A DNA stretch of 52,478 nucleotides from an uncultured Chitinophagaceae bacterium (GTDB taxonomy: Bacteria > Bacteroidota > Bacteroidia > Chitinophagales > Chitinophagaceae), in contig CAIVPM010000380.1 in assembly GCA_903907815.1 (NCBI GenBank), positions 1 through 52,478 on the forward strand, in the 5' to 3' direction. Shown here piece after piece: positions 8,640 through 26,700 of this stretch; positions within the stretch are counted from its first letter, which is position 1; every line of letters starts with the position of its first letter. The notes under the pieces were generated by a model. That model searched no databases. It was given only the letters and a program-made list of their open reading frames with translations, and had not been told where the DNA came from. The position numbers and the translations under genes were made by a program.

Positions 8640-10010
8640 TTATAGAAAAACGTAATCTATCAATGTACTCATGGAAACTGTTTGCTGTGTACTGGTAGTA
8701 AGGTGTTTTACCACGCAATTATTTTCCTCCAGTTCTTTGCTTCCAAGAATGATTATATAAGGAATGTTTTTCTTTTCGGCATATTTAAACTGCTTATCAA
8801 ACTTTGCATTTTCGTGATACATTTCACAAGCAATATCCTGTTCTCTAAGTTGTTGCATTAAACCAAAAGCAGCCTTGCTTTCTGAATCGCCCAGATTGAA
8901 GAATAATACTTTAGTACCAGACTGTACAGCTTCTGGAAACAACTTCAGTTCTTCCATTACATCATAAATTCTATCTACTCCAAAGCTGATACCTACACCA
9001 GGTATATTAGGTACGCCAAATAGTCCGGTAAGATCGTCGTAACGACCACCGCCACCAATGCTACCCATCTGAACGCCAATAGCTTTTATTTCGAAGATGG
9101 TGCCTGTATAATAATTTAAACCACGGGCAAGGGTAAAGTCAATAGTTAGTTTTGTTTCTTTGGTGGTGAAATTGGAAAGAATATGTTTTATTTCTTCCAG
9201 TCCTTTATTGCCCAACTCATTAGTGCCAAATAAGGAAGCAATGGAAGTTAATTTATCTTCGTTAGAACCATCAATGGAAAGATACTTTTCTATAATGATA
9301 ATCTGGTCATTGGTTAACCCTCTTTGAATAAGTTCATCTTTCACTTTATCCAGACCAATCTTATCCAGTTTATCAATAGCAATAGTGATGTCCATCATTT
9401 TGTCGGCACCACCACATAGTTCGGCTAATGCTGCAAGAATCTTTCTGCTATTGATTCTTATTTCTACCTCAATTTCGAGCTTTCTGAATACCGTAGCATA
9501 GATGTTTGTTAGTTCAACTTCGTTCAGTAAACTATTACTACCTACCACATCAGCATCGCACTGATAGAACTCCCTATAGCGACCTTTCTGAGGTCTATCG
9601 GCACGCCATACAGGCTGAATCTGATAACGTTTAAAGGGAAAGGTAAGTTGACCATGGTTCATGGCCACATAACGAGCAAAAGGAATAGTAAGATCATAGC
9701 GTAAAGCACGTTCGGTAATGTTCTTATTATTCTTTCCTTCCAGTACTTTTTCAAACTCTGCTTTTACCAAAGTGTGTTTATCAGGATTATCTAAACCATT
9801 ATTTAAAATTTTGAAAATAAGCTTGTCTCCCTCTTCGCCATACTTACCCATCAAGGTATCGAGGTTCTCCATTGAAGGAGTTTCCAAAGGCTGAAAGCCG
9901 TATATTTCAAATACCTTTCTAATGGTATTAAATATATAGTTCCGTTTGCGAACGGTTTCTGCATTAAAGTCTCTTGTGCCTTGTGGAATGCTTACGTTTA
10001 CTTTAGCCAT
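8640..10010 (-). CDS. hisS: Histidyl-tRNA synthetase
   Basis: A cytoplasmic class II synthetase that charges tRNA-His. The protein has 456 residues from the ATG at 10010, which starts MAKVNVSIPQGTRDF; an in-frame ATG 21 codons upstream lies in a repeat-derived leader and is unlikely. Motifs in order are QGTRDF (motif 1 region), REFYQCDADVVG (motif 2), the histidine-binding LARGLNYYTGTIFEI, and GVGISFGVDRI (motif 3), followed by an anticodon-binding domain with KQFKYAEKKNIPYIIILG. Length and motifs are complete. A TATTTTTG box at 10071-10078 may be its -7 element, giving a leader that contains the GTGAGTCGTGA repeat. Confidence 0.96.
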   Translation of the reverse strand: MAKVNVSIPQGTRDFNAETVRKRNYIFNTIRKVFEIYGFQPLETPSMENLDTLMGKYGEEGDKLIFKILNNGLDNPDKHTLVKAEFEKVLEGKNNKNITERALRYDLTIPFARYVAMNHGQLTFPFKRYQIQPVWRADRPQKGRYREFYQCDADVVGSNSLLNEVELTNIYATVFRKLEIEVEIRINSRKILAALAELCGGADKMMDITIAIDKLDKIGLDKVKDELIQRGLTNDQIIIIEKYLSIDGSNEDKLTSIASLFGTNELGNKGLEEIKHILSNFTTKETKLTIDFTLARGLNYYTGTIFEIKAIGVQMGSIGGGGRYDDLTGLFGVPNIPGVGISFGVDRIYDVMEELKLFPEAVQSGTKVLFFNLGDSESKAAFGLMQQLREQDIACEMYHENAKFDKQFKYAEKKNIPYIIILGSKELEENNCVVKHLTTSTQQTVSMSTLIDYVFL

Positions 10011-10019
10011 GTTATTTGT

Positions 10020-10066
10020 CGTGAGTCGTGAGAATACATAGTGAGTCGTGAGAAAATACTTCGTGA
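10020..10066. repeat. GTGAGTCGTGA repeat, copy A
   Basis: Two ~20-bp units of GTGAGTCGTGAgaAtAcat lie in the hisS leader. The same word, in the same orientation, lies on the far side of the IVP-like gene (10460-10499) and in inverted orientation at 10617-10651 and 26664-26700. Copies A and B bracket the IVP gene as direct repeats. Confidence 0.75.
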
Positions 10067-10093
10067 TATTCAAAAATAACGAAATGTTTCGCT

Positions 10094-10447
10094 CTAATAC
10101 ACAATCATCTTATTCAGCATTTGTACTGTTCTTATAATTAGTATTCCCGTTTCTTCTAACTCTTTTTTTTTTATATAATTTAAATCAATTGATATGTCAA
10201 AAATAGTGTCTACTTCAATTGCAGACCCTCTTGATACTTCAAAATATCTTCTTCTTTCAATGGACGATTTTCTGCTACATCCTTCTGCAATATTAAGATG
10301 AACTGATAATGCTGCTCTTCGTAGCTGCTGAACCATATTAAACTTTTCATCTAATGGCAATAGTTTTGATTTGCTGTAACAAGATAGAACCAACTGTTTA
10401 GTTGTCTTAAAAACATCTAATCTGGTATGAGCTAATTCGAGGAACAT
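10094..10447 (-). CDS. Four-helix-bundle protein, 23S rRNA IVP / S23 family
   Basis: A 117-residue all-helical protein of the '23S rRNA intervening-sequence protein' family (four-helix bundle, also related to Avd of diversity-generating retroelements). The diagnostic stretch is QQLRRAALSVHLNIAEGCSR (residues ~41-60), followed by YFEVSRGSAIEVDT. Founding members sit in insertions of 23S rRNA genes, but many Bacteroidota copies are stand-alone and their function is unknown. Here the gene lies between hisS and a phosphatase gene, bracketed by direct copies of a 20-bp repeat, and has its own promoter (10559-10586), which suggests an inserted unit. No reverse transcriptase or variable repeat is near, so a DGR role is not supported. 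Confidence 0.85.
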   Translation of the reverse strand: MFLELAHTRLDVFKTTKQLVLSCYSKSKLLPLDEKFNMVQQLRRAALSVHLNIAEGCSRKSSIERRRYFEVSRGSAIEVDTIFDISIDLNYIKKKELEETGILIIRTVQMLNKMIVY

Positions 10448-10459
10448 GGTAGTCTATTT

Positions 10460-10499
10460 CGTGAGTTGTGAAAATACATCGTGAGTCGTGAAAAACATC
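10460..10499. repeat. GTGAGTCGTGA repeat, copy B
   Basis: Two 20-bp units, GTGAGTTGTGAAAATACATC and GTGAGTCGTGAAAAACATCT, in the leader of the IVP-like gene. They have the same orientation as copy A on the other side of that gene. Confidence 0.75.
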
Positions 10500-10558
10500 T
10501 TTAATTAAGAGCTAAATGTGCTAAATATTTTTCCTTCCTCCTGTATTTTAAATTCTCG

Positions 10559-10586
10559 CAAATATACTTTAATAGAATACTATCAA
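10559..10586 (-). promoter_or_regulatory. Promoter of the IVP-like gene
   Basis: Minus strand: TTG (10584-10586), a 17-base spacer, then TATATTTG (10559-10566). This matches the Bacteroidota consensus TTG-N17/19-TAnnTTTG. The start site would be ~105 bases before the ATG at 10447, so the leader RNA carries repeat copy B. Confidence 0.65.
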
Positions 10587-10616
10587 CTTTATTAAATAAC
10601 AAAACATAAATGTATT

Positions 10617-10651
10617 TCTCACGATGTATTTTCACGACTCACGACTCACGC
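10617..10651. repeat. GTGAGTCGTGA repeat, copy C (inverted)
   Basis: Reverse complement of the same word, with the core CACGATGTATTTTCACGACT, running up to the end of the tyrosine phosphatase gene. With copy B it forms an inverted pair around the IVP promoter. Confidence 0.7.
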
Positions 10652-11110
10652 GTCTAACGAGTACTTACTCACAATATTATCACACGCTCTATCAATCATT
10701 TGAAACACTACATGAAAACCTTCTTCGCCACCATACCATGGATCGGGAACATCTCTGTCTTCACCCGGATACAATTCATTCAATAATAAATCTACTTTCT
10801 CCTCCTGCCAATTGTTGCCACAAATATGTTTTACATCATTGTAATTGCTGTTATCCATCACATAGATTTTATCATAAAAAAGAATGTCTTCCTTTCTGAA
10901 TTTTCTTCCTTTTTGTTTTGATATATCTATGCCATTCAACTTAGCTACTTTTTGTGAAAGATGATGGGGAGTTTCACCTATATGATAGCCTGCAGTACCT
11001 GCACTATCTACAGTCCATTTTAGCCCTGCTTTATCCGCCTTATCTTGTAAAATGCCTTCTGCTAAAGGACTTCTACAAATATTACCCAGACAAACCATCA
11101 GTATCTTCAT
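10646..11110 (-). CDS. Low-molecular-weight protein-tyrosine phosphatase
   Basis: A 154-residue cytoplasmic phosphatase with the family's P-loop at the N-terminus (CLGNICRS, nucleophile Cys7 and Arg13) and the general-acid loop DVPDPWYGG, with Asp123 as the acid. All catalytic residues are present and the length is normal. Relatives act on protein phosphotyrosine, often in exopolysaccharide control, but no tyrosine kinase or polysaccharide gene is in the window. The stop codon overlaps the edge of an inverted GTGAGTCGTGA repeat. It lies 50 bases downstream of the flavoprotein gene and may share its transcript. Confidence 0.93.
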   Translation of the reverse strand: MKILMVCLGNICRSPLAEGILQDKADKAGLKWTVDSAGTAGYHIGETPHHLSQKVAKLNGIDISKQKGRKFRKEDILFYDKIYVMDNSNYNDVKHICGNNWQEEKVDLLLNELYPGEDRDVPDPWYGGEEGFHVVFQMIDRACDNIVSKYSLDA

Positions 11111-26663: not shown

Positions 26664-26700
26664 CTCACGACTCACGATGTGTTTTTCACGATTCACGGTT
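26664..26700. repeat. GTGAGTCGTGA repeat, copy D (inverted)
   Basis: CTCACGACTCACGATGTG followed by TTTTTCACGATTCACGG, the same word as copies A-C around the IVP gene, 16 kb away. Confidence 0.6.

Follow-up and report, generated by a model that had tools for sequence, protein, structure and literature searches.

The IVP gene and its flanking arrays

We have analysed a stretch of DNA of 52,478 nucleotides (the window) that makes up one contig (C380; CAIVPM010000380.1) of the draft genome of an uncultured Chitinophagaceae bacterium (GCA_903907815.1, here G000; 3.93 Mb in 511 contigs), and describe a small gene of the IVP family together with the heptamer arrays that surround it. The gene (10094..10447, minus strand) encodes a four-helix-bundle protein of 117 aa that matches PF05635 with an E-value of 1.3e-26 (93.3 bits, cut-off 33.8). 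It lies in an operon between the upstream LMWPc gene for a low-molecular-weight phosphatase (10646..11110, minus strand; PF01451, E=1.2e-35) and the downstream gene hisS (8640..10010, minus strand, called from its open reading frame, ORF), and so outside 23S rRNA, as the first-pass annotation of this DNA had it. The downstream arm, array A (10020..10066, plus strand), consists of double-heptamer units with AATACA joints and adjoins the hisS start. The upstream arm, array C (10617..10651), carries GTGAGTC words on the minus strand and, from the ORF as we read it, supplies the stop codon of LMWPc. An additional internal array, B (10460..10499, plus strand), has the orientation of A. A and B are thus direct copies and C is inverted, with arms of 27–28 nt that are 93–96% complementary. 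Copy D (26664..26697, minus strand) is a solo GTGAGTC array without an IVP gene and with TGTATT linkers nearby. All four copies had been placed in this way at first pass, A, B and C with these orientations; the direct 20-bp repeat described there is indeed a repeat, but each unit is made up of two 7-mers and an AATACA/TGTATT linker.

The word of the window is more frequent in G000 than chance allows, since GTGAGTCGTGA, allowing up to one mismatch, occurs at 145 sites there versus 25 for the same pattern read backwards. Of the 63 exact word sites in the G000 DNA examined, 54 have the linker no more than 25 nt away, where about 10% would be expected. Among five genomes compared, it is frequent solely in the genus of G000: it occurs in 11 of 12 elements of G000 (mean 3.7 copies) and four of five of G001, the genome of another species of the same genus (1.8), and in three of 10 elements of G005 (0.3), four of 10 of G008 (0.7) and none of six of G010. 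In G000 and G001 the linker also connects successive arrays of very unlike words, where it may perhaps be a junction signature of serial insertions.

Judged from sequence, the general frame of the element is A to C and not A to B, because B is missing from G001. A fold of the window transcript pairs A with C (z=-4.78, 20 shuffles). The first-pass annotation gave the gene its own promoter at 10559-10586; a sigma-70 scan finds no promoter there, although a candidate -7 box upstream of the IVP gene, TATATTTG (10559..10566, minus strand; TATATTCG in G001), can be seen by eye and is one that we take to resemble the Bacteroidota-type consensus. Elsewhere in the window a tandem array, (CTAATTAG)x4.6 at 784-820, is similar to the word of another G000 IVP element, C193b.

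The AlphaFold2 monomer model of the window protein is a confident four-helix bundle (pLDDT 96.4) and, with the PF05635 match, bears out the first-pass identification. Its closest folds are 2gsc (XCC0516), a relative in the PDB with five chains, then 2rld, then Avd, alone and as chains in a retroelement reverse-transcriptase complex (4dwl, 8ube and 8ub7 for Avd); TM-scores (query length) against the 2gsc chains are 0.86-0.92. The 2gsc protein is described as a homopentamer (PMC4990558). The low dN/dS ratios against G001, 0.126/0.923 (~0.14) for the window IVP and 0.025/0.49 (~0.05) for that of the G000 element C88, indicate that the protein is maintained under purifying selection.

Inverted arrays at other IVP genes

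G000 holds 12 IVP genes, 10 of them with both flanks available. We compared the upstream flank of each with the reverse complement of its downstream flank and required the match to beat the best of 200 shuffles. By this measure all 10 have significant inverted arms with 300-nt flanks and nine with 350-nt flanks (C88 fails), and flanks paired across different G000 elements score below the elements' own pairs. Among 39 genomes, G000 included, 31 contain IVP genes, with 145 matches; a sample of 101 of these from 30 genomes yielded 98 with both flanks (29 genomes). Inverted arms are present at 72 of the 98 and direct arms at 11, and a count on the best locus of each genome gave inverted arms at 18 of 28. 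The same scorer finds inverted arms at eight of 409 control genes (1/37 in the window, 7/348 on other G000 contigs, these being the ones picked for IVP genes or the window word, and 0/24 in relatives).

The best period is 7 in 44 of 68 arms and 8 in 20, and their self-match is 0.56 at lag 7, 0.52 at lag 14, 0.39 at lag 8 and 0.34 at lag 15, compared with 0.25-0.28 at other lags of 4-13. The median arm length is 36 nt. That five words might serve five IVP subunits is speculation, and Xanthomonas arrays, mostly of four units (PMC4692102), speak against it. The words themselves differ from element to element in G000, with GTGAGTC in the window and GGAGACA, AAGGCACA, GGTTCAAGA, AATTTGAAA and others elsewhere. 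The expectation that other IVP genes of the genome would share the flanking word of the window therefore failed, and a single word common to all IVP genes is ruled out.

A repeat-rich background is unnecessary for the association. G005, a single-contig genome, has an ordinary background of 19.3 TRF arrays per 100 kb (140 kb sampled), similar to the 18.6 and 23.6 of two IVP-free genomes, and has inverted arms at 10 of its 13 IVP genes tested. In relatives the IVP units tend to be co-directional with their surroundings, both neighbours being on the same strand in 76 of 94 cases versus a baseline of 264 of 495. The corresponding count for the named XCC0516-like loci considered below (21 of 69 same/same) was left unused, since taking the longest ORF is an unreliable way to call genes in GC-rich DNA and overlooks the accB-accC pairs present at these loci.

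Units present or absent as a whole

Homologues of hisS are found in all 23 genomes compared, G000 included, and the phosphatase-hisS gap could be measured in the 19 in which the hisS start was found. It is 7-142 nt and IVP-free in 11 of these, 635 nt in G000 and 557 nt in G001, where it contains an IVP gene and GTGAGTC arrays and lacks B. Of the remaining six, G013 has phosphatase and hisS adjacent and IVP-free on reading, and five showed no phosphatase. Besides G000, G001 alone among the genomes read has the element at this site; the comparison of this gap proposed at first pass thus places it in the sister species and not in the other genera read.

Units also differ within the genus. A sister element in G000, C140, lies between two genes read by eye as CoA-transferase subunits and is absent from G001, where the corresponding interval is 5 nt instead of 476 nt and lies far inside a contig. 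The empty site in G001 nevertheless keeps a solo right-hand array, and the order in G000 is left array, IVP gene, right array and linker, followed by the array common to G001. With arms in inverted orientation, the G001 state cannot result from deletion between direct copies, and the simpler reading is that units are gained beside an existing array rather than lost. Together with the element-free LMWPc-hisS gap of other genera, the C140 site bears out the first-pass proposal of a small mobile cassette with repeats at its edges. A second element, C473, shows a like pattern (460 nt in G000 versus 12 nt in G001, with a solo array). In two G001 contigs, C222 and C311 (L316, L315), 131 identical bases immediately precede the C473 junction, and the G001 population may hold both filled and empty states of this site. 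The element at the C193b site (accB-accC by eye) is common to G000 and G001, and for one further locus (L037) the G001 site search found no orthologous flank.

Correspondence of protein and word

The relation between protein clade and word was evaluated in 69 elements with arms, by a Mantel test on 2000 permutations. Among the 71 pairs from different genera whose proteins are at least 50% identical, 25.4% have a same-strand word score of at least 26, compared with 4.2% of the same pairs on the opposite strand and 0.4% of 1040 pairs at 20-30% identity. The Mantel correlation of protein with word is 0.271, above the permutation maximum of 0.117. We note that in 23 of 25 different-genus IVP pairs, hand-picked for like proteins and, mostly, like words, the neighbouring genes examined are non-homologous, which argues that gene and word travelled together. 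The clade of the window protein (10 tree rows, from several genera) has significant arms in seven rows, with the words GTGAGTC, GTGAATC, GTGAGAG or GTGAAAG.

A wider set comes from a scan of named loci with a fragment of XCC0516 (2gsc), from which we took the best 80 of 465; by title these derive from Pseudomonadota, Flavobacterium, Nitrospirota, KSB1, Berkelbacteria and others. Flanks are available for 78, and 52 of these show inverted arms (gene ends from stop codons). Words of the form G[GT]GA number 548 on the gene strand and 64 on the opposite strand, with a sense bias at 75 of the 78 loci and a reverse bias at two; G(T/G)GA words are thus found with the window clade in other phyla as well. 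The Xanthomonas gene is flanked by accB and accC; GGGAATC words precede it and ATTCCC words follow it. At this site the two arms covary (46 compared), with a word overlap of 0.77 versus 0.37 when permuted (0/5000), although the species are related and independence is overstated. The accB-accC junction holds IVP elements both in G000 and G001 (L032:552-902) and in the Xanthomonas relatives, and these belong to unlike clades and have unlike words. Of 15 plasmid records matched, eight, all of them cyanobacterial, were examined, and inverted arms are present in six (e.g. AGGGAACAGGGAAC), two of these six being near-identical Nostoc elements.

Arrays lacking an IVP gene

The distribution of the window word was surveyed in 149 genomes of the order, G000 included, with the window clade defined by E <=1e-25. 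The GTGARTC pair GTGARTCGTGARTC is present in 17 of the 149, and its reversed control in three genomes with one match each. At least four sites are found in six of the 11 genomes with the window clade versus three of the 138 without it (p=2.6e-6), and within the family in five of eight versus none of 10 (p=0.0065). Pairs of genomes from one genus give the same picture: G143 has the clade and 59 sites and G116 neither, G158 has the clade and nine sites and G091 neither, and G022 has the clade and 38 sites where G153, with a weaker match alone, has none. In 578 kb of G000, on contigs picked for IVP genes or the window word, 10 of the 12 words of the G000 elements have 5-45 further matches, where reversed DNA gives 0-1; the remaining two words are no more frequent than in this control. 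Arrays without an IVP gene thus tend to follow the IVP clade in these sequences, which points to a family of elements and not a chance word. The first-pass annotation had named repeats equally common everywhere as a finding that would count against it, and this is half the case: within G000 they are dispersed, but across genomes the dispersal tends to go with the clade.

Array material can also lie within a gene. In two of 23 genomes, belonging to two genera, hisS contains in-frame insertions: about 80-90 nt of heptamer-array material near residue 285, without an IVP gene, in G001 (L142) and G014 (L147).

Interpretation and alternatives

Read from the sequences themselves, the unit has a definite anatomy, recurs with different words, and shows a link between clade and word; the same gene and word are found together at unrelated places, and a whole unit is present in one species of a genus and absent from another, which has a lone array where the unit is missing. 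The explanation we favor, and consider probable, is that this is a small mobile element consisting of one IVP gene between inverted arrays of 7- or 8-base words, inserted co-directionally in an operon and encoding a pentamer with its own cognate word. The pentamer would bind this word, as a single strand or as a stem, and new units would enter at, or next to, a cognate array already in place. No match to RVT_1 (PF00078) or Y1_Tnp (PF01797) was found in G000 at E <=0.001, other transposase families not having been searched, and we propose for this reason that insertion would run on host DNA machinery. In the transcript the arms may pair as they do in 23S rRNA intervening sequences, in which case the window element would be the mRNA-resident form and the 23S inserts the rRNA-resident form of one entity.

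Several observations weigh against a mobile element of this kind. Significant inverted arms are lacking at 26 of the 98 elements, among them three of the 10 window-clade rows (L082, L084 and L104). Five genomes (G005, G009, G025, G051 and G166) carry the clade with fewer than four word sites, three others (G066, G137 and G157) have the word but no close member of the clade, and the Mantel correlation is modest. The likeness among XCC0516-like loci is largely vertical, with 47 of the 80 at the one accB-accC site, and two Flavobacterium loci (L251 and L260) show an antisense excess of G[GT]GA. The two empty sites (C140 and C473) show a solo array and no clean target duplication, no excision product was seen, and gain beside that array is argued and not proven. 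Moreover, the C473 junction lies near the end of a G001 contig, where 131 bases are identical to the end of another contig; the assembly thus branches at this point, and the case is the weaker one. Finally, the authors of the Coxiella work think that no IVP protein is produced in vivo and that it can be dispensed with, the RNA mattering more, and report that its expression in E. coli has no effect on growth (PMC4990558).

The arrays could instead be binding or pairing sites by which a resident, non-mobile IVP protein regulates the operon it belongs to, along with a regulon of genes close to the dispersed arrays. The co-directional neighbours, the purifying selection on the IVP gene and the covariation of arms at the accB-accC site, which 47 of 80 named loci retain, would all fit such a role, but regulation does not account for the presence or absence of whole units between two species of one genus, for the same gene and word at unrelated loci, or for IVP-less array material within hisS in two genomes, and we regard it as unlikely. 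The direct A-B pair that was taken at first pass for the edges of the cassette, moved by recombination between the two, draws on the similarity and shared orientation of A and B; it is highly improbable given that G001 has the element at the same site without B and that other G000 elements have inverted arms, and as a general rule it is ruled out by G001. We give almost no credence to slippage heptamers in gaps where IVP genes merely happen to lie. Such repeats are short and degenerate, and some genomes are rich in them (G010 has 78.6 TRF arrays per 100 kb), but the background of G005 is ordinary and 10 of its 13 IVP genes have arms; the link of word to clade and the control rate of eight in 409 also count against chance, which is refuted unless IVP genes select such gaps.

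A further alternative is that another system (RAYT/Y1, a reverse transcriptase or some other transposase) mobilises the arrays and the IVP gene rides along as cargo. In REP/RAYT (REPIN) systems a gene lies amid cognate short repeats, with many gene-less copies elsewhere; the gene-less dispersed copies are alike in the two cases, but the window protein is a four-helix bundle and not a Y1 transposase, and REP sequences are palindromes where the window has tandem 7-mers. The dispersed short inverted repeats and the Avd fold, which is that of a reverse-transcriptase partner, could each be taken to favor cargo. Y1_Tnp is present in 28 of 39 genomes, with two matches in G001. The absence of RVT_1 and Y1_Tnp matches from G000 (within the families searched) speaks against a present-day reverse transcriptase or RAYT partner there, RVT_1 shows no positive association with IVP (eight of 31 genomes with IVP versus four of eight without, G000 included), and the word follows the IVP clade; we judge cargo decidedly unlikely. 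A reverse-transcriptase partner as for Avd is rejected for want of an RVT_1 match in G000 and of any positive association, and RAYT for want of a Y1_Tnp match in G000, though G001 has two.

To return to the mobile element, IVP genes with inverted heptamer arrays seem to represent small mobile elements of a type that has received little recognition. In the open-licence literature, so far as its texts were available, we found no paper that connects cognate heptamer arrays with IVP genes located outside rRNA; passages of PMC4990558 describe the function of IVP/S23p and the spread of 23S intervening sequences as unclear, and the heptamer repeats of several phyla are described with no known mechanism (PMC4692102, PMC4679880). 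As a tentative extension, possible rather than probable, IVP genes across bacteria may form one minimal mobile class, in which a single non-catalytic pentamer homes to its own 7-base word, one word per clade, and of which the Xanthomonas, Nostoc and other heptamers and the 23S intervening sequences would be footprints. If the pentamer guides insertion at its own word without a transposase of its own, this would be a new way for DNA to move, and a gene-to-word code would link the function of IVP/S23p to the heptamer repeats of several phyla.

Relation to described systems

Classical insertion sequences and miniature inverted-repeat transposable elements have a fixed terminal inverted repeat common to their copies, whereas the IVP elements of G000 differ in their words. 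Rickettsia palindromic elements place short repeat material in frame within coding genes; they are one fixed palindrome, in contrast to the heptamer arrays inserted in hisS of G001 and G014. Avd of the diversity-generating retroelements has a fold like that of the window IVP, but G000 has no RVT_1 match; the likeness of Avd to PF05635 is already published (PMC10053308).

The closest parallel is with the 23S rRNA intervening sequences of Coxiella and Leptospira, in which, as in the window, an IVP ORF is enclosed by terminal inverted repeats that pair, and in which the ORF is sense to the host transcript (PMC4990558). The same source describes for Coxiella a 28-bp terminal stem, three tandem GACAGAT heptamers (two in some strains) directly before the IVP start codon and, at the first heptamer, the 5' RNase III site. 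The window element differs in residing in a protein-coding operon (LMWPc-hisS) and not in a 23S rRNA gene, in being one of a dozen copies in G000 with different words, and in having dispersed IVP-less arrays; moreover, the Coxiella ORF is said to decay (PMC4990558), whereas the window IVP is under purifying selection.

Heptamer repeats have been described without this gene. Those of Xanthomonas (GGGAATC) and Nostoc resemble the window arrays in their period of 7 and their dispersal and, in Xanthomonas, in often forming inverted pairs, with 70 and 75 inverted GGGAATC pairs in two genomes and generally no link to mobile elements (PMC4692102). A term search of the main text of that paper finds XCC0516, accB, accC and a helix bundle unnamed. 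The TAACTGA heptamers of Beggiatoaceae are described as perhaps horizontally transmitted by a mechanism that is not evident (PMC4679880). We also note that in two cyanobacterial plasmids (L271 and L273, ~2480-2860) an IVP gene is found within type I-D CRISPR loci, with cas6 on one side and cas4 on the other.
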